NCBI GenBank assembly: GCA_021324885.1
Contig: JAJPIF010000025.1
Coordinates: forward strand, 296,713-360,712
Source of the DNA: Pseudomonadota bacterium
GTDB lineage: Bacteria; Desulfobacterota; Binatia; Binatales; Binataceae
DNA length: 64,000 nucleotides
Direction: 5' to 3'
Below the pieces are notes generated by a model that was not told the DNA's origin, searched no databases, and was given only the letters and a program-made list of their open reading frames with translations. Below, in pieces: positions 7,423-17,523 of this stretch. The translations under genes were made by a program, and so were the position numbers. The first letter of the stretch is position 1. Each line of letters starts with the position of its first letter.

Positions 7423-9276
7423 TTAGAGCAGATCGAAATTGTACTCAAATTGACCGATCAACATGTTCTTGCCTTTGAAGAGGCCGCCGTCCAGGTTGTA
7501 ACGGTCGGTGCCAAGAATCTGTATCCATTGCAGCTTGACAAAGTATTTGTTCGTCCATGGAGGAACCAATTGCAAGGTGGGAAAGAATAGCCAGGTTTCC
7601 CCCTGCGGAGCATAGATCATGGTCCACGTCGGGCTGACGGCGCCCCACCACCAGGACGTGCCGACGTTCAGCAGCATGTTGACGTCATTGTGGTACAGGG
7701 GAGTGAAATAACTGGCGGCTTCCTGGACGAATTTGCTCGGACTCAAGGTGGTCAGATCGGTGAACTCGTAGTTCACCGTCAGATTGCCTGTGCTGGTCAG
7801 CCACGGGACGTAAGCCTGGTCGAGGTCGAGTGCGACCATCCATTTGAGCGTATCGGAGTAATACAAAGCGTCCGGCGTGCCCACGGCCGGATTAAAATCC
7901 GTGTAAACAGTGCCTGGGATGAAGTCGGTATTGAAGGTCTGATGGTTTGTATAGAACGCTTCGCCCCGCAAAACAAACGGGAGTTGGGCCAGAGGTCCGG
8001 GCAGATACAATGGCCTGTTCGCGGTAAAGCCCAGGCTCTGATATTGCGGATAATACTCGATCAGCCGCCGTTCAAAGAACGACGGGGCGACCTCCAGCGC
8101 TGGCGTCTGCGCTATCTTCAACACCGGATTGTATTCATGACTCCACAGATAAAATGCGGTTAATTCGGCGTTCTCGAACAGCGTATGGAACCGAACGCCG
8201 ACTTGTGAATTGCCCCAGGTGGCGTTGGGCAGCCTGGGATCCGGCAAACCGAAGTATTCGCCGGGGCCCTGCCCCGGGATTCCCGTTCCCGTTTGAAACA
8301 GCGCGACCGGGGCCGCGGTCCCGCAAAAACCTGGAAAACCGGCGGCCGGAATCACTTTACCCCCCAGCGGAGTGAACAATACCCGGCAGTCCAGTTGACC
8401 CGCGAAGCGGCCTCCTGGATTTGCGGCGGCGATGTTCACTCGTCCCGCGATGTTATCCAGCCCGTTGAGGTGATCGTCGCTGTAGTCAACGTGGTTGTAC
8501 AAGAAATCAAATCCCGGGACATAGACCAGTTCGAGATAGTTCGAACTGAGCGGCCCCAGCGAAGGCAGGTTCAGGATCGGATGGACCATCCAAAGCGGCA
8601 TGCGCGACTGCTCCAGATTGGCGAAACCGAAATTCCAGCTGAGGTTCTGAGGATTTATCTGATCACCCACGCGAAAGGCCAGCGACTCACCCCAGGTCAC
8701 GATCTGCCGGCCGATGAACAAATCCAGCGGCCCCTGGCGATGCTTGAACCATAATTCCCGGATTCCATAGGTGTTGTAGAAATCGGAGTTGCAGTGCATC
8801 GCGGTGAACGATTGTCCGCGCAGCGCTCCCAGCCAGGTCGCTCCTGGTCCCAGACACGCAACCTCCCAAGGATAGGAAGGTTCGTAGACGAACCAGTCGC
8901 GCATGAACATGCTGTCGTTCTCGGTGAAATCGTCATTGACGTCGATTTGAACCATGTTGCGCTCGACCGCCAGCGAGTTTGTGCTTCTCTGACCGAATCG
9001 ATCGACGTTGCCCGCGGGCGTGAATCCGAACCCTTTGGCGGCGTTGTGCGAATTGATCCAGGTTCCGCTCGTGTTCAGAAAGAACCCGGTTATCTGCAGG
9101 TTCTTCAGAAAATAAGGCTCGGAGTTTTTCGTCGTCGATGACGACGTGGTGGCGCTTTGGTTCTGAGCCAGAACATTGCCAGCCAGCGCCATGGTTATCG
9201 AAAGCACAACCGCGCCACAGGTGAAGGCGGTTGGCCCAGACCATAATGCCGTTTTATAAACCCTTGATCTGCTCAT
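7423..9276 (-). CDS. DUF1302-type outer membrane protein
   Basis: A 617-residue exported protein with a clear signal peptide (charged N-terminus, hydrophobic core to about residue 35, ending NVLAQ). The segment LFIGRQIVTWGES followed by a VGDQINPQN loop matches the hallmark of DUF1302 proteins, predicted outer-membrane beta-barrels often found with hydrophobic-substrate or esterase genes. Alternating aromatic strands through the C-terminus fit a barrel. AGGG lies 8 bases before the ATG. The physiological cargo is unknown; uptake of hydrophobic compounds is a reasonable guess from the family context. Confidence 0.75.
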   Translation of the reverse strand: MSRSRVYKTALWSGPTAFTCGAVVLSITMALAGNVLAQNQSATTSSSTTKNSEPYFLKNLQITGFFLNTSGTWINSHNAAKGFGFTPAGNVDRFGQRSTNSLAVERNMVQIDVNDDFTENDSMFMRDWFVYEPSYPWEVACLGPGATWLGALRGQSFTAMHCNSDFYNTYGIRELWFKHRQGPLDLFIGRQIVTWGESLAFRVGDQINPQNLSWNFGFANLEQSRMPLWMVHPILNLPSLGPLSSNYLELVYVPGFDFLYNHVDYSDDHLNGLDNIAGRVNIAAANPGGRFAGQLDCRVLFTPLGGKVIPAAGFPGFCGTAAPVALFQTGTGIPGQGPGEYFGLPDPRLPNATWGNSQVGVRFHTLFENAELTAFYLWSHEYNPVLKIAQTPALEVAPSFFERRLIEYYPQYQSLGFTANRPLYLPGPLAQLPFVLRGEAFYTNHQTFNTDFIPGTVYTDFNPAVGTPDALYYSDTLKWMVALDLDQAYVPWLTSTGNLTVNYEFTDLTTLSPSKFVQEAASYFTPLYHNDVNMLLNVGTSWWWGAVSPTWTMIYAPQGETWLFFPTLQLVPPWTNKYFVKLQWIQILGTDRYNLDGGLFKGKNMLIGQFEYNFDLL

Positions 9277-10100: not shown

Positions 10101-10118
10101 CCTGACACCAATGTCAGG
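10101..10118. promoter_or_regulatory. Operator-like inverted repeat 1 (TetR locus)
   Basis: CCTGACA and TGTCAGG are exact inverted 7-base arms around CCAA. The same TGACA-N4-TGTCA core recurs 23 bases downstream, about two helical turns away. This is the pattern expected for paired dimer sites of the adjacent TetR regulator. Confidence 0.65.
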
Positions 10119-10123
10119 GCGAA

Positions 10124-10141
10124 ACTGACACGAATGTCATG
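10124..10141. promoter_or_regulatory. Operator-like inverted repeat 2 (TetR locus)
   Basis: CTGACA-CGAA-TGTCAT repeats the TGACA-N4-TGTCA core of the site at 10101. Centre-to-centre spacing is 23 bases. Both sites lie upstream of the candidate TetR promoter rather than over it. Confidence 0.6.
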
Positions 10142-10163
10142 TTGATTTTCGCGCGCCAACGGT

Positions 10164-10190
10164 TTGACTACGCCACTTATCGCTTATAGG
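10164..10190 (+). promoter_or_regulatory. Candidate promoter of the TetR gene
   Basis: TTGACT at 10164-10169 matches five of six -35 bases, and TATAGG at 10185-10190 matches four of six -10 bases with a short 15-base spacer. The predicted start would lie about 15-20 bases before the ATG. Confidence 0.35.
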
Positions 10191-10213
10191 TTTTTTGATG
10201 CTCGGATTTGCAC

Positions 10214-10831
10214 ATGGAAAAGCAAGCACGGCGGGCCCAGGTGCTGCGGCACGCCAAAAGGATTTTCGCCCGCAAGGGATATCATCGGACCAACGTCGCG
10301 GATATCATCAGCCGAGCCCGGATCGCACGGGGTACCTTTTATCTTTACTTCGAAAACAAAAAAGATCTTTTTGAGGAACTCCTTGAGCAGGTGTTGCGCG
10401 AACTGGCGGTCCGGATTCATCGCATCCGGATCGGACCCGGCGAGCCTGAACCCGCCGACCAGTTGCGCGCCAATCTGCGTCGGGTGATGTCTTTCGTGCT
10501 TAGCGAGCGGGACTTGACTAATATTCTGCTCAGCCACGCTTTGGGCTTTGATCCGGAACTGGATGAACGGATTCAGACCTTTTACGACCGTATCGCGGCG
10601 CAGATCCAGCGCTCGCTGGACCTGGGAATTACGATGGGACTGGTGCGCCGATGCGATACGCGGACCGCGGCCTACTGTATTCTGGGCGGAGTCAAGGAAA
10701 CGATCGCGCAACTCTCGCGCCAGGCGCCGCCGGACATCGACGGGCTGGTCGAGGAAATCCTGCGCTTCGGTCTAAGCGGGGTGGCGCGTCCGGAATTGCT
10801 CGAAACTCTCCGTAACATTGGCGAACCCTGA
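10214..10831 (+). CDS. TetR/AcrR family transcriptional regulator
   Basis: A 205-residue TetR regulator. The N-terminal helix-turn-helix spans roughly residues 8-52, with the family signature ARKGYHRTNVADIISRA followed by RGTFYLYFENKKDLF. The C-terminal helical domain should bind a ligand, commonly an acyl-CoA or hydrophobic compound. An upstream in-frame TTG (10208) is possible, but the ATG is preferred. The gene is flanked by TGACA/TGTCA palindromes, two upstream and one over the start codon of the next gene, so it probably regulates itself and the lipid-enzyme operon that follows. Confidence 0.93.
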   Translation: MEKQARRAQVLRHAKRIFARKGYHRTNVADIISRARIARGTFYLYFENKKDLFEELLEQVLRELAVRIHRIRIGPGEPEPADQLRANLRRVMSFVLSERDLTNILLSHALGFDPELDERIQTFYDRIAAQIQRSLDLGITMGLVRRCDTRTAAYCILGGVKETIAQLSRQAPPDIDGLVEEILRFGLSGVARPELLETLRNIGEP

Positions 10832-10859
10832 GGAGGACGCTTTTATTTTCGCGCTACTA

Positions 10860-10875
10860 GACTGACATGTCAGTC
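10860..10875. promoter_or_regulatory. 16-base palindrome overlapping the HAD start codon
   Basis: GACTGACATGTCAGTC is perfectly palindromic and contains the ATG of the HAD gene at 10867-10869. It shares the TGACA and TGTCA half-sites with the repeats at 10101 and 10124, but without the four-base spacer. Binding here would block transcription or translation of the operon. Confidence 0.6.
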
Positions 10876-11595
10876 CAAAAAAACCGTTTTCGTGCCGCCG
10901 CCTTCTACGACCTCGACGGCACCCTGGTGGACGTCAATCTCCTGCATGTCACCGCGTACATGCTGGCCAATGTCGCGGAATGGAAGGGACGTCTGGCCAA
11001 TGTGGCGGCGCTGGCGTTGCGTCTGCCGCGCATATACGCGGCCGAACGGCATGATCGCCGGCTGCTCAACGTAACCATCTTCGGCATTTTCAGAGGCATC
11101 TCGCGCGACCGCTTGTTCCTACTGGGCGAGGAATACTGCGAACGGGTCCTGATGCAGCACTTTTACGCGCAGGCGGTCGATTTGATGGCCGGCAATCGCG
11201 AGGCGGGACTGGAGCCAATCCTGGTCACGGGATCGCCCGATTTCGTGGTCGCGGCGCTGGCGCGCCGGATCGGAGTCGAGACTTTCGCCGCCAACCGCCT
11301 CGCCTACAGCCGCAATCTGGCCAGTGGGCGGCTGCGCGAACCGATCATCGCGGGCGAGGAAAAGGCCCGCTGGTGCGAGGAGTATGCGGCGCGCAGGGGA
11401 CTGCGCCTGAGTGATTGCTGGGGCTATGCCGACTCCTACTACGACCTGCCCTTTCTGACCGCGCTGGGCCATCCGGTGGCCGTCAATCCGGATCGGCGGC
11501 TGCTGGCCACCGCGCGCGATCGCCAATGGCCGATCATCCGCTTCGCCAAAACCCGGGCGCCCGCGCCGGCATGGCCATATAACGGAGAATCCTGA
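10867..11595 (+). CDS. HAD-IB family hydrolase (phosphoserine-phosphatase-like)
   Basis: A 242-residue haloacid dehalogenase phosphatase of subfamily IB. Motif [10 protein letters not shown] supplies the nucleophile Asp15 and acid/base Asp17; motif II is VTGS, motif III includes the lysine in [11 protein letters not shown], and motif IV is [17 protein letters not shown] enzymes of this type are often next to or fused with PlsC acyltransferases, so a lipid phosphate is a likelier substrate than phosphoserine. The ATG sits inside a palindrome without a nearby Shine-Dalgarno site; an in-frame stop at 10858 excludes an upstream start. Its TGA overlaps the next ATG by one base. Confidence 0.9.
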
Positions 11596-13235
11596 TGGCG
11601 CAAGCCGAACGCAAACTCAAGGAGCTCAAGGCGGCCCAGCTCAAACACGAAGTCGGAGCGCGCCGCGAGTTGGTGGTTACGCTTAACAGCCGCTCGGAAC
11701 CACGGCTGATCTCCTATGGCGATGACTTCCTGGTGGCGAAACTTCCACCCGGCACCCGCGTGATCTATCCGCCGCCGCCGCTGGAACCGCTCCCCGATCC
11801 CGATGTGGCGATTCGCTACGCTCTGTTGCATCCGGAAAACGCCGATCCGCTGTTCGCGCAGCTCAGCCCAAACATGCGCGTAACCATCGCGATCGACGAT
11901 ATCAGCCTGCCGCTGCCGCCCATGCAGCGGCCTGACTTGCGCGAGCGGATGCTTAACATCGTGCTCCAGATGCTGGCGGATTACGGCGTCGATGACGTGC
12001 ACCTCATTATCGCCACCTCGCTCCATCGCCGGATGACTGAAGACGAAGTCCGCCGGATGGTCGGCGAGCGCGTCTTCAAGGCGTACTGGCCCGATCGGCT
12101 TTACAACTTCGATGCCGAAAACCGCGCCGAACTCACGATGCTGGGCAAGACCGATCACGGCGAGGAAGTATGGCTCAGCAAGCGCGCCGCCGAATCCGAC
12201 CTCCTGATCTACCTCAACATCAACCTGGTCCCGATGGACGGCGGACATAAATCGGTCGCGGTCGGCTTGGCGCCGTATCGAAGCCTCAGGCATCACCACA
12301 ATCCGGCCACGCTGCGCGACAGTCATTCATACATGGATCCGACCCGCTCGGGCCTGCATCGGAGCGCTGATCGGATGGGCAGGATCGTCAACCGCAACGT
12401 CAACGTGTTCACGATCGAGACCGCGATCAACAACCGCATGTACGGCGGTCTGCTGGATTTTCTGCACAAGAACGAAGATCGCTTCAGCGACTGGGATCGG
12501 GCGCGCCTGGGCACCTTCAAATGGACGCTGCGCAATGTTTCCGACGGGCTGCGGCGCGAGATGCTGCGCCGCTACGCCGCGCCGTACGGGATGACCGGGG
12601 TGTGGGCGGGGGAAACCGAAGCGGTGCACGACAAGGCGCTGGCCCGTGTGTTTCAGCAGTACGCGGTTCCGGTGAAGGGCCAGAGCGACATTTTGATTGT
12701 GGGCGTGCCCTACATCTGTCCGTATAACGTCAACTCGATCATGAATCCCGTGCTGGTGCAGTGCACCGGCCTTGGCTACCTGTTCAACATGTATCGCAAC
12801 AAGCCGTTGGTCCGCGCCGGCGGCACACTCATCATCTGCCATCCGCTGCGCGACGAGTTCCATCCCGAGCACCATCCGAGCTACATCGAGTTCTTCCATC
12901 GATGTCTGGCCGAGACCAACGACTCGGTCGAGCTCGAGCGCAATTTCGAGGCGGAGTTCGCGCGCAATCCGACCTACGTCCACATGTACCGTTATGGGCA
13001 CGCCTATCACGGCGTGCATCCTTTCTACATGTGGTACTGGGGCGAGCCTGGACGCCAGCACCTCGGCCGCATCATCGCGGCCGGCTGCGAGGATCCCGAG
13101 GTCGCTGCGCGGATGGGATGGGAGGCGGCCGACACGCTCGATCAGGCGATCGCGATGGCCACCTCGGAGTTGGGTCGCTCGGCTTCGGTTACGTACCTGC
13201 ATCTGCCGCCCCTGGTAATTGCCGATGTCGAATAG
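11595..13235 (+). CDS. LarA-like (DUF2088, lactate racemase N-terminal) protein
   Basis: A 546-residue protein with a LarA-type N-terminal domain. The segment [10 protein letters not shown], then [23 protein letters not shown], matches the D-T/S-R/L-P and AtGtHrp-type signatures of DUF2088. Further on, GGHKSVAVG followed by LRHHHN fits the lysine and histidine that hold the nickel-pincer cofactor in lactate racemase. The C-terminal half is rich in His, Tyr and Trp and is less familiar. It is translationally coupled to the HAD gene (TGATG overlap) and overlaps the fusion gene downstream by 11 bases. A role in hydroxy-acid or hydroxyacyl chemistry of the lipid pathway is plausible but unproven. 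Confidence 0.8.
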
Positions 13236-16200
13236 CGCCAAACCCCAAACCGCCGTCCGCGGCAAAGGCATGCCCACGCTGGAGCGCGTGCTCACCGGGC
13301 GGCGCATCCTGCTGACCGGTGGCACCGGATTTCTGGGCAAAACCTTCCTCTACCTGCTTTTGCGCGACCATCCGGAGATCGCGCGCATCTACCTGCTGAT
13401 TCGCGGCGACCGCCGCAGCGCGCTGACCCGCTATCAGCGCGAGGTGGTGGATTCGCCCCCGATGGATCGCCTGCGCGAGCAATTGGGAGAGCGCTTTCAA
13501 GGCTATCTGGAAGATCGCATCGTCGTCCTGCCCGGCGACATCTCCAACGAAGGCTTGCTCGCCGCGGGAGTCGAACCGCTCAAGCGCGGGCAGATCGATG
13601 CGATCGTGCATTGCGCCGGTCTGGTCAATTTCGAAGCCTCGCTGGAAAAGGCGCTGGTGGTCAATACTCTGGGCGTCGCCAACGTGATCGAATTCTGCCG
13701 CAGGCTCGACGCCAAGCTGCTGCACGTATCGACCTGCTATGTCGCGGGCAGCGCCGACGGCCATCGCTACGAAGAGGACATCCCGGTGGATTGGTGCCCT
13801 GACGAGCGGCAGGAACATTTCAATGTGCGCCGCGAAATCCGCGACGCCCGCGCCGCCATCGATCGGATCGAGGCCGCCTCGCACGAGGCCGCCAATTGCG
13901 AATTCAGCGAAGGCGATGGCGAGCATATGAGCGAAAGCCACCGCAAGCGCTGGGTCGAGGAGAAGCTCAAAGCGGAGGGACTCGCGCGGGCCCAGCGATG
14001 GGGCTGGCCCAACACTTACAGCTATACCAAGAGCCTCGGCGAGCAACTGGTGCTGGCCGCGCGCGGCGAACTCGACGTGACGGTGGTGCGGCCGGCCGTT
14101 ATCGAAAGTGCTCTTGCCGATCCGATGCCCGGATGGAACCAGGGGGTCAACACCAGCGCGCCGCTCACTTACTTGTCGGGCGAAGGTTTCCGCTTTTATC
14201 CGGCGCGCCCCGATTTGGTGCTTGACGTGATCCCGGTTGATCTTGTCGCGCATGCGATGGTGCCGGTACTTGCCGCCCTGCTGGTGCGCCGTCAGGACCC
14301 GATTTATCAGCTCGGCACGTCGGACTGTAATCCGCTGCCGATGCGGCGCCTGGTCGAACTGACGGGCCTCGCCAACCGCGAATACCAGCGCGACGGGCGG
14401 GGGACGATGGGCAAGCTGGCGCCGCATCTGGAGTCGGTGATCGTTTCCAGGGAAGCCTATGAGTTCGTCAGCCGCACGGGGCCCCGTTTCATCAGGCAGG
14501 CGGTCGATTTTGTCAAGAGCGCGGCGAAACTGGACAATTCGCGCACGCGCCGGTTCGACCAGCGGCTGGACCAGTTCCTGGATCAGATCGACGTCGCCCG
14601 CTCCCTAATCTCGGTCTACCTGCCCTATATCCAGGACCTGGTTTACACCTTTCACTGCCGCAACATTCGCGCGCTGTACGCGCGCCTGACGCCGGCCGAC
14701 GCGCGGCGCCATCCTTTCGCCCCCGAAAAAATCGATTGGCGCCATTACTGGATCAACATCCATCTGCCCGGGTTGCGGCGCTACATCTTCGGGCAGCTGG
14801 ATTTGCACACCAGGGGGCGCGCACGCGCCGCGCGCCGCCATCGAGATCTGATCGAGCTGCTGGAAAGTGCGGCGTCCAAATTCGGCTCCGGCCCCGCGCT
14901 CGTTGCCCACAATCAGTCTGGCGGGCAGACCACGCTGACTTACCGCGAAACCCGCGAGCGCGCGGTTCGCGCGGGCCTGATGCTGGGCGGCCGGGGCGTG
15001 CAGCCGGGCGACCGCGTCCTGCTGATGGGCGAGAATTCCCCGGATTGGGTGGTCGCCTTCTTCGCTATCCTGTATGCGGGCGCGATCGCGGTACCGCTCG
15101 ATCATTTGATTTCGGCCGAGGAACTTTCCGCGATTTGCCGGATTGCGGAGCCGCGCGCCGCCCTGCTGTCGGAAAGCGTCCAGCGGCGGCTGAGCAAACC
15201 GATCGCGGAGATGCCCGGCGAAATTTTGCAGTTCCAATTCGACGAACTTGCCCGGCCCTTTCTTTTGCGCGGCGGCGCGCCGGCCAGACCCGAAATCGAC
15301 CGCAAATCTTTGGCCGCGATCTTTTTCACTTCCGGCAGCACCGGAACGCCCAAGGGCGTGATGCTCACGCATGGCAATCTGACCGCGGAGGTATCGATGC
15401 TGTCGCGGGTGTTCGCGCTCAACGAGGACGAAACGCTGCTTTCGCTGCTCCCGCTGCATCACACCTTCGAGTTCACCTGCGGGATGCTGCTGCCCATATC
15501 GAGCGGCGCACGGATTGTCTATCCGCTGGGAGTGGACGCCGCCACGCTGTCGAGCACGCTGGCGCAGATTCGGCCGACGGCGATGATCGGCGTGCCCGCG
15601 CTGTGGCAGGCGATTCATCGGCGGATTCTGGATGAAGTCGAATCACGCGGCGCCGTAGTCCATTCGCTGTTCGAAGGCCTGCGCGATCTCAATCGGCGTC
15701 TGAGCGCCGACTTCGGACTGAACTTCGGACGCGTGCTGTTCCATGCCGCCCATCAGGCTTTGGGCGGACGCCTGCGCCTGGCGGTCAGCGGCGGTGCCGC
15801 GCTGCCTAATCGCGTGGCCGAGTTCTTCAACGACATCGGCTTGCGCCTGCTCGAAGGCTACGGTCTGACTGAAGCGGCGCCGGTGCTGAGCGTCGCGCAT
15901 CCTGACGAACAACTCGTTCCGGGCTCGGTCGGCAAACCGCTGGCCGGCGTGCAGATCAAGCTCAGCACCGAAAACGGCGATGAAGTCGGAGAGATCCTCG
16001 CGCGCGGACCCAATGTGATGGCGGGGTATTACCGCGATCAGGCCGCCACCGACGCCGCGCTCAAGGACGGATGGCTCCATACGGGTGACCTGGGACGCTT
16101 CGATGAGCATGGCCGCCTCTACATAGTGGGGCGCGCCAAGGACGTCATCGTCGATGCGGGCGGCAACAATGTTTACATCGACGAGGTCGAGGAAGCCTAC

Positions 16201-17523
16201 AGCCATTCGCCATACATGAAGGAAATGGCCGTGGTCGGGCTCAAGACGCCGGGCGGCGAGCAGGTCGCGGCGTTGGTGGTGCCGGCTTATGCCCGGGGCC
16301 AGAGCCGGCGCGCGGTCCACGATCAGCTTCAGGCCCATTTCGCCAGGGTCAGCGCCACCCTGAATCCGCATAAGCGAATCAGAATTTTGCGCTTCACCGA
16401 CGCCGACCTGCCGCGCACTCGGACGCGCAAGGTCAAACGCGCCGAAGTCGTGGATCTGCTCAACCGCCTGATCGCGCAAAACGGTGAGCAACGGCACGCC
16501 GCGGTGGACGTTGAACCATGGCTGGTCGAAACGCTTTCGCAGGTAACGGCAAATGGCGCGAAGATCTCGTCCGCCACACGCCTGATCGAGGATTTGGGCC
16601 TTGACTCGCTGGCGCTGGCCGAACTGGGCGAGCACGTCGCGGCACGCACGGGCCGCGAACTGACGCCCGAGGAACTCGGCAACCTGCGCACGGTCGAGGA
16701 TCTTCAGCAGGCGATCGCGCAGAGTTCGCGGCGTCCGCGCCTGCCCTCGTACGCACATCTGGCTGAGCCTTATACTCCCCAGTTGCCCAAACCGCTGCGG
16801 CTCGTGGGCGAAGCGGCAACGCGGGGCATGCAACGTCTTTTCCTTTCCGGATGGCTGAAACCGCGGGTCATCGGGCGCGGCAACGTGCCGGCCAATCGCA
16901 ACGTCATCGTGGTCGCCAATCATGCCAGTCATGTGGACTTCGCCGTCGTGCGCGACGCGCTGGGTCCGATGGGCGAACAGTTGGTGGTGCTGGCAGCGCG
17001 CGATTATTTCTTCAGCACGCCGGCACGCCGCTTTGTGGCGCATAACTTCAGCCCGCTGATCCCCTTCGATCGCGAACGCGCGCAACTGGAATCGCTCGAT
17101 CAGGCGCTGGCCCAGCTTGCCGCCGGACGCAGCCTGCTGATGTTCCCCGAGGGCACACGTTCCACCGATGGATCGCTCCAGGAGTTCAAGAGCGGCGCCG
17201 GCTACCTCGTGCTGCGCAGCGGATGCGACGTGCTGCCGGTCCACATCAGCGGCACCCATCAGGTCCTCGGCAAGGGCAGCGTCGTGCCGCGCCGCCATCC
17301 GGTGGAGGTGCGGATTGGCGGCGTAATCAGCAATCGCCTGCTGCGCGAAATCGCGGAAAGCAGCGAGGGCGCCGGCGCCTACCGCTCAGTTTCGGATTAT
17401 CTGCGCCGCATCGTCGCGGGCCTTGCGCTGGGTCACAGCCCCGCACGCGAGCGCCCCGCACCCAAGCGGCAGGAACCCGTCCGCCATCGCCATCGAGAGC
17501 AAGCCCACGCCCGCCAGACCTGA
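13225..17523 (+). CDS. Fatty acyl reductase / AMP-ligase / ACP / PlsC acyltransferase fusion
   Basis: A 1432-residue four-part enzyme. Residues about 25-400 form a Male-sterility-type reductase with TGGTGFLG near residue 30 and a YSYTK catalytic pair. Residues about 545-1090 are an acyl-CoA/ACP synthetase with [12 protein letters not shown] near residue 700, GYGLTEAAP and GWLHTGDLG. An acyl carrier domain follows, with the phosphopantetheine serine at 1128 (LGLDSL). The C-terminus is a PlsC acyltransferase with HASHVD at 1233 and [10 protein letters not shown] at 1307. The set suggests loading of a fatty acid, transfer to glycerolipid and reduction to aldehyde or alcohol. The domain order recalls, from memory, the myxobacterial ether-lipid enzyme ElbD. 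The ATG at 13225 overlaps the LarA-like gene. Confidence 0.92.

Follow-up and report, generated by a model that had tools for sequence, protein, structure and literature searches.

Locus organization

The window analysed here, a 64-kb stretch of DNA (64,000 nucleotides), comes from an uncultured, Binataceae-like bacterium with a 4.5 Mb genome that is 96% complete; the closest named relatives of this host are metagenome bins labelled Candidatus Binataceae, Deltaproteobacteria or Proteobacteria. Four genes on the forward strand form one operon: a TetR-family regulator (10208-10831; PF00440 and PF17932 over cut-off), an ElbB-like HAD-IB phosphatase (10867-11595; TIGR01490 over cut-off), an ElbC-like protein of the LarA family, group LarAH14/15/16 (11595-13235), and an ElbD-like fusion that begins with the ATG at 13225 and runs to 17523. 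The LarA-type protein is a probable nickel-pincer-nucleotide (NPN) enzyme with a single catalytic histidine, judging by its match to NF052592, its residues, and the model and its fold match. The HAD stop codon and the LarA-type start codon overlap in TGATG, and the LarA-type gene and the fusion overlap by 11 bases—an earlier reading, made from the letters of this DNA alone, had described a TetR gene followed by three overlapping genes, and all four lie in those positions, on that strand and with those overlaps.

Upstream of tetR, a gene on the reverse strand (7423-9276) encodes a DUF1302 protein, probably an outer-membrane protein, and 3' of the fusion, also on the reverse strand, lies an MgsA/RarA gene. 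In many Binatota relatives (L073-L083) the fusion is followed by a zinc-dependent phospholipase C-like gene, a dual-specificity phosphatase, and a gene for a DUF7064 protein.

The fusion is 1,432 residues long and contains four domain types according to Pfam, each with its expected motifs. A fatty acyl reductase region (residues 30-522; 13312-14790, forward strand as for the other three; PF07993 and PF03015) comes first, and residues 21-522 match the fatty acyl-CoA reductase 7eoz. It is followed by an AMP-binding ligase region (residues 547-1069; 14863-16431; PF00501 and PF13193), an acyl carrier, or phosphopantetheine, domain (residues 1099-1161; 16519-16707; PF00550, motif GLDSL), and a PlsC-type acyltransferase domain (residues 1214-1342; 16864-17250; PF01553, motifs NHASHVD and FPEGTRS). 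The sequence-only reading had likened the domain set to ElbD of the Myxococcus ether-lipid cluster, and alignment bears out the likeness: the fusion is 39-41% identical to ElbD-type fusions of Myxococcota and Acidobacteriota over about 1,430 columns, end to end. In assays of ElbD, ligase and carrier activity were confirmed; reductase and acyltransferase activity were not (PMC9131029). ElbD homologues are also present in some organisms in which ether lipids have not been detected, as reported for Pontiella (PMC11868695).

The TetR regulator and its candidate operators

Related palindromes had been noticed at three points of the locus, and all three are present with common TGACA/TGTCA half-sites; their spacing differs, at 4, 4, and 0 bases. 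Two have the form TGACA-N4-TGTCA and lie upstream of tetR as possible operators (TGACACCAATGTCA at 10103-10116 and TGACACGAATGTCA at 10126-10139), and the third is a perfect 16-base palindrome, GACTGACATGTCAGTC, that covers the HAD start codon (10860-10875) and is the probable TetR operator. These are the only occurrences of TGACA-N0-6-TGTCA in the 64-kb window, with 0.19 expected after shuffling. The two upstream palindromes are not conserved in relatives, which rules them out as conserved operators.

Twelve Binatota loci include the tetR-HAD junction, and 11 of them have the core of the palindrome at the HAD start, TGACATGTCA, in the same place; loci from other phyla, 1.13 Mb in total, contain no match. 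One Binatota relative has the core out of frame with the HAD gene—there it is kept as DNA and not as peptide. This conservation makes TetR control of the operon credible, and the TetR encoded here would be the protein that binds the palindrome. The hexamer TAGACT (10858-10863), just upstream, could serve as a -10 element, in which case the transcript would be leaderless. A TetR gene stands upstream at all 11 testable Binatota loci and at none of 53 loci from other phyla.

Conservation of the gene order

A LarA alignment, used to scan named bacterial genomes, picked out 80 loci in Binatota, Myxococcota, Acidobacteriota, and Planctomycetota. Their neighbourhoods were mapped by tblastn and by homology-weighted gene maps; the longest non-overlapping ORFs are misleading in this GC-rich DNA, where shadow ORFs occur. 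Within the family of the host, seven of the eight genomes searched (the host included) have a LarA-type gene over the family cut-off, and the order TetR, HAD, LarA-type, fusion repeats.

Absence of conserved co-occurrence had been named beforehand as a refutation of the sequence-only reading; what we find is strong co-occurrence. At 12 of 12 testable Binatota loci and at 47 of 61 from other phyla, the LarA-type gene has the HAD gene directly upstream of it; the fusion comes after the LarA-type gene at 13 of 13 and 27 of 57, respectively; about half of the loci outside Binatota have no fusion near the HAD-LarA pair. Of the proteins of the Binatota operon, the LarA-type one is the best conserved, with 79-85% identity to the window protein, compared with 55-66% for the HAD protein and 57-63% for the reductase domain. 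Some Acidobacteria have a split fusion, and there the genes run in the order FAR, ligase/ACP/PlsC, PlsY, HAD, LarA-type, and epimerase, with diacylglycerol kinase in some; PlsY and, where it occurs, the kinase tie these clusters to glycerolipids. Remoter LarAH14-like genes from other members of the phylum (35-40% identity) have no ElbD-like fusion next to them and branch separately, and the ElbC clade stands clearly apart from them.

Some loci show other arrangements. Two full-length ElbC-type genes occur in an Archangium bin (L101 on G398:C57 and L212 on G398:C35), neither adjoined by an ElbD-like fusion in the stretches read. In some Myxococcota (L099, L113, L121, and L122) the genes next to the HAD-LarA pair include ones without a Pfam family, and an ElbD-like fusion is not nearby; three of these four have a gene for a LonB-like protease near the pair.

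Relation to the elb operon

The elb operon of M. xanthus, which is tied genetically to ether lipids, consists of elbA (NAD-epimerase), elbB (HAD), elbC ("unknown function"), elbD (FAR, ligase, ACP, and acyltransferase), and elbE (NAD-epimerase) (PMC9131029). In the Myxococcaceae, 74 of 76 genomes have a LarA-type gene over the curated cut-off, and all 16 loci examined read HAD, LarA-type, fusion, NAD-epimerase, with a second epimerase upstream in most—an order that agrees with the published elbA-E. The LarA-type gene is thus very probably elbC, an identification drawn from order and homology in Myxococcaceae genomes rather than from the M. xanthus record itself. Its place at the elbC position means that the pairing of HAD, LarA-type, and fusion genes belongs to the known elb operon. 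The sequence-only reading had called the coupling to a LarA-fold protein functionally unexplained; the coupling is that of the elb operon.

In the window, the HAD gene (elbB) and elbC come directly before elbD, and the locus very likely represents elbBCD, the central part of the operon by which bacteria make ether lipids. As far as the M. xanthus operon (ElbD, Lorenzen et al. 2014) is described in PMC9131029, the two share the HAD gene, the LarA-type gene at the elbC position, and the four-domain fusion, in the same order. They differ in that the window cluster has its own TetR gene and palindrome, a fusion of only 39-41% identity, and no adjoining elbA or elbE; these NAD-epimerase genes are likewise missing beside the cluster in Binatota relatives. 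The cluster is therefore of a known kind, in a Binatota form that includes a TetR gene and has neither elbA nor elbE alongside. The earlier interpretation as an operon for an unusual glycerolipid was largely correct, supported as it is by the co-occurrence, the Myxococcaceae gene order, and the ElbD-like fusion.

ElbC as a probable nickel-pincer enzyme

The window ElbC matches NF052592 (NCBIfam LarAH14/15/16) over its full length with 837.5 bits against a cut-off of 740; what sets this member apart is that it sits in a lipid operon. Across 48 ElbC-type proteins from several phyla, H144, K219, H235, and D102 are invariant. They correspond to the first catalytic histidine, the lysine that links NPN, the nickel-ligand histidine, and the ribose-binding aspartate. 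The loop that carries the second catalytic histidine (H174 in LarA) is shortened and has no histidine, and the carboxylate-binding arginine (R75 in LarA, R73 in LarA_Ip) is replaced by L, V, or I. Lacking both this histidine and this arginine, ElbC falls outside the classical LarA 2-hydroxy acid racemases, but it has the NPN-binding residues and is encoded in a genome with NPN synthesis genes, as expected of an NPN-dependent enzyme. A published analysis of the LarA groups noted that the second histidine is missing from groups like LarAH14/15/16, which may move a hydride inside a single substrate (PMC7583248).

The predicted structure of ElbC (mean pLDDT 91) has significant matches to LarA-family structures only. 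The best is the single-histidine LarA of Streptococcus plurextorum (LarA_Sp, 9q3k; E 3e-33, TM 0.87 by target length), an enzyme that carries NPN (PMC12611868). By both sequence profile and fold, this protein and the LarA of Blautia wexlerae (9q3j; PMC12611868) are the closest solved structures. ElbC keeps equivalents of the NPN lysine, the nickel ligand, and His401, a residue that in LarA_Sp adjoins a bound, unidentified ligand and whose ElbC equivalent, H475, is invariant. Unlike ElbC, they have Asn for the second histidine in a longer loop, Lys for Arg73, and carbohydrate gene neighbours; identity is about 20%. Lactate racemase LarA (5huq) shares the fold and the NPN-binding residues; besides lacking the two catalytic-site residues described above, ElbC is about 120 residues longer and has lipid genes as neighbours.

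The genes for cofactor synthesis co-occur with ElbC. Among 36 genomes with ElbC, LarC is found in 35 and LarB in 35 (in one case in two pieces), compared with LarC in 6 of 14 control genomes; ElbC is the only LarA homologue in 12 of the 36, all of which have both LarB and LarC. The host encodes LarB, LarC, and LarE, and also has a second, ordinary LarA-family gene (L015/L067, G000:C19:8427-9038), so its LarB/C/E do not serve the window protein only. This second gene rules out the only-LarA argument for the host itself; the argument holds in the 12 other genomes. Taken together, the NPN-binding residues, the cofactor co-occurrence, and the LarA-family fold of the model make it probable that ElbC is an NPN enzyme, and we hold this view with good confidence.

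Searches of the literature for DUF2088 with ether lipid, and for Binatota with ether lipid, found no papers; a search for NPN with ether lipids gave one match, a review of Haloferax annotation, and otherwise no paper that links the two. As far as the searched papers show, the recognition of ElbC as very probably a nickel-pincer enzyme is new.

Proposed pathway and alternative explanations

The reading we favour, at a probability of roughly 0.72, is that of a TetR-repressed elbBCD cluster, the core operon for ether lipids, with ElbC as an NPN hydride-transfer enzyme. The ElbD-type fusion would convert a fatty acid to acyl-AMP, load it on its own carrier domain, reduce the loaded acyl group to a fatty alcohol (or aldehyde), and acylate a glycerol phosphate acceptor. 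ElbB, the HAD protein, would take a phosphate off a glycerolipid intermediate, and ElbC would perform an NPN hydride move on the glycerol backbone or a related carboxylate-free substrate; the glycerol backbone is proposed tentatively. The local TetR would act as the repressor, bound at the palindrome over the HAD start and released when a lipid ligand is abundant. The product would be an ether lipid.

The chemistry by which the ElbD pathway leads from a fatty acid to an ether lipid is an unsolved problem (PMC9131029). Discussion of the elb operon also extends to the branched tetraethers that serve as palaeothermometers (PMC10087280). The product of elbC, being a probable nickel-pincer enzyme, is a concrete candidate for a missing step, and the elb operon gives a lipid context to a LarA subgroup without known substrate. 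The placing of elbC in the lactate-racemase family of nickel-cofactor enzymes points to unsuspected nickel chemistry in bacterial ether-lipid synthesis. In the most specific form of this idea, an acyl- or alkyl-glycerol phosphate would undergo hidden hydride transfer at its C2, catalysed by ElbC, by which the ether (or vinyl-ether precursor) bond is made or enabled independently of alkyl-DHAP synthase—a version that we consider unlikely.

Alkyl-DHAP synthase (AGPS) is an ether-bond-forming FAD enzyme that lies outside the operon and is unrelated to ElbC. Its absence from the host can be ruled out: a homologue is encoded away from the window (L161, G000:C25:160599-161363, reverse strand), with alkyl-dihydroxyacetonephosphate synthases as its best solved relatives (2uuu, E 2.7e-76). 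A similar gene is found in one Binatota relative (L160). The ether bond could form at this unlinked homologue, and, with the other LarA of the host, its presence means that in the host the cofactor genes and ether formation could both be independent of the operon. The operon might then supply fatty alcohol and acylation only, with ElbC in a side reaction that inverts or recycles a hydroxylated intermediate. We regard this alternative as rather doubtful; in M. xanthus, disruption of alkyl-DHAP synthase had a minor effect and elbD was needed (PMC9131029), and ElbC, as the most conserved protein of the Binatota operon, does not look like a side activity.

Less likely still is an operon whose product is not an ether lipid but a wax ester, a free fatty alcohol, or some other acylated lipid, with ElbC preparing a 2-hydroxy acid building block. 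A fatty acyl reductase and an acyltransferase would suit waxes too, and LarA enzymes of known function use 2-hydroxy acids (PMC7583248, PMC11851776), but ElbC has L, V, or I in place of the carboxylate-binding arginine, the M. xanthus operon is genetically tied to ether lipids (PMC9131029), and the Acidobacterial versions adjoin PlsY and, in some, diacylglycerol kinase.

Least likely of all is that ElbC, though of LarA fold, has given up NPN and serves ElbB and ElbD as a binding or structural partner: its missing histidine and arginine, and the inactivity of a Frankia LarAH14 protein on the substrates tried (PMC7583248), would fit, but the first catalytic histidine and the three NPN- and nickel-binding residues are invariant in 48 proteins, NPN synthesis genes are present where ElbC is the only LarA, and the single-histidine enzyme of S. 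plurextorum carries NPN (PMC12611868).
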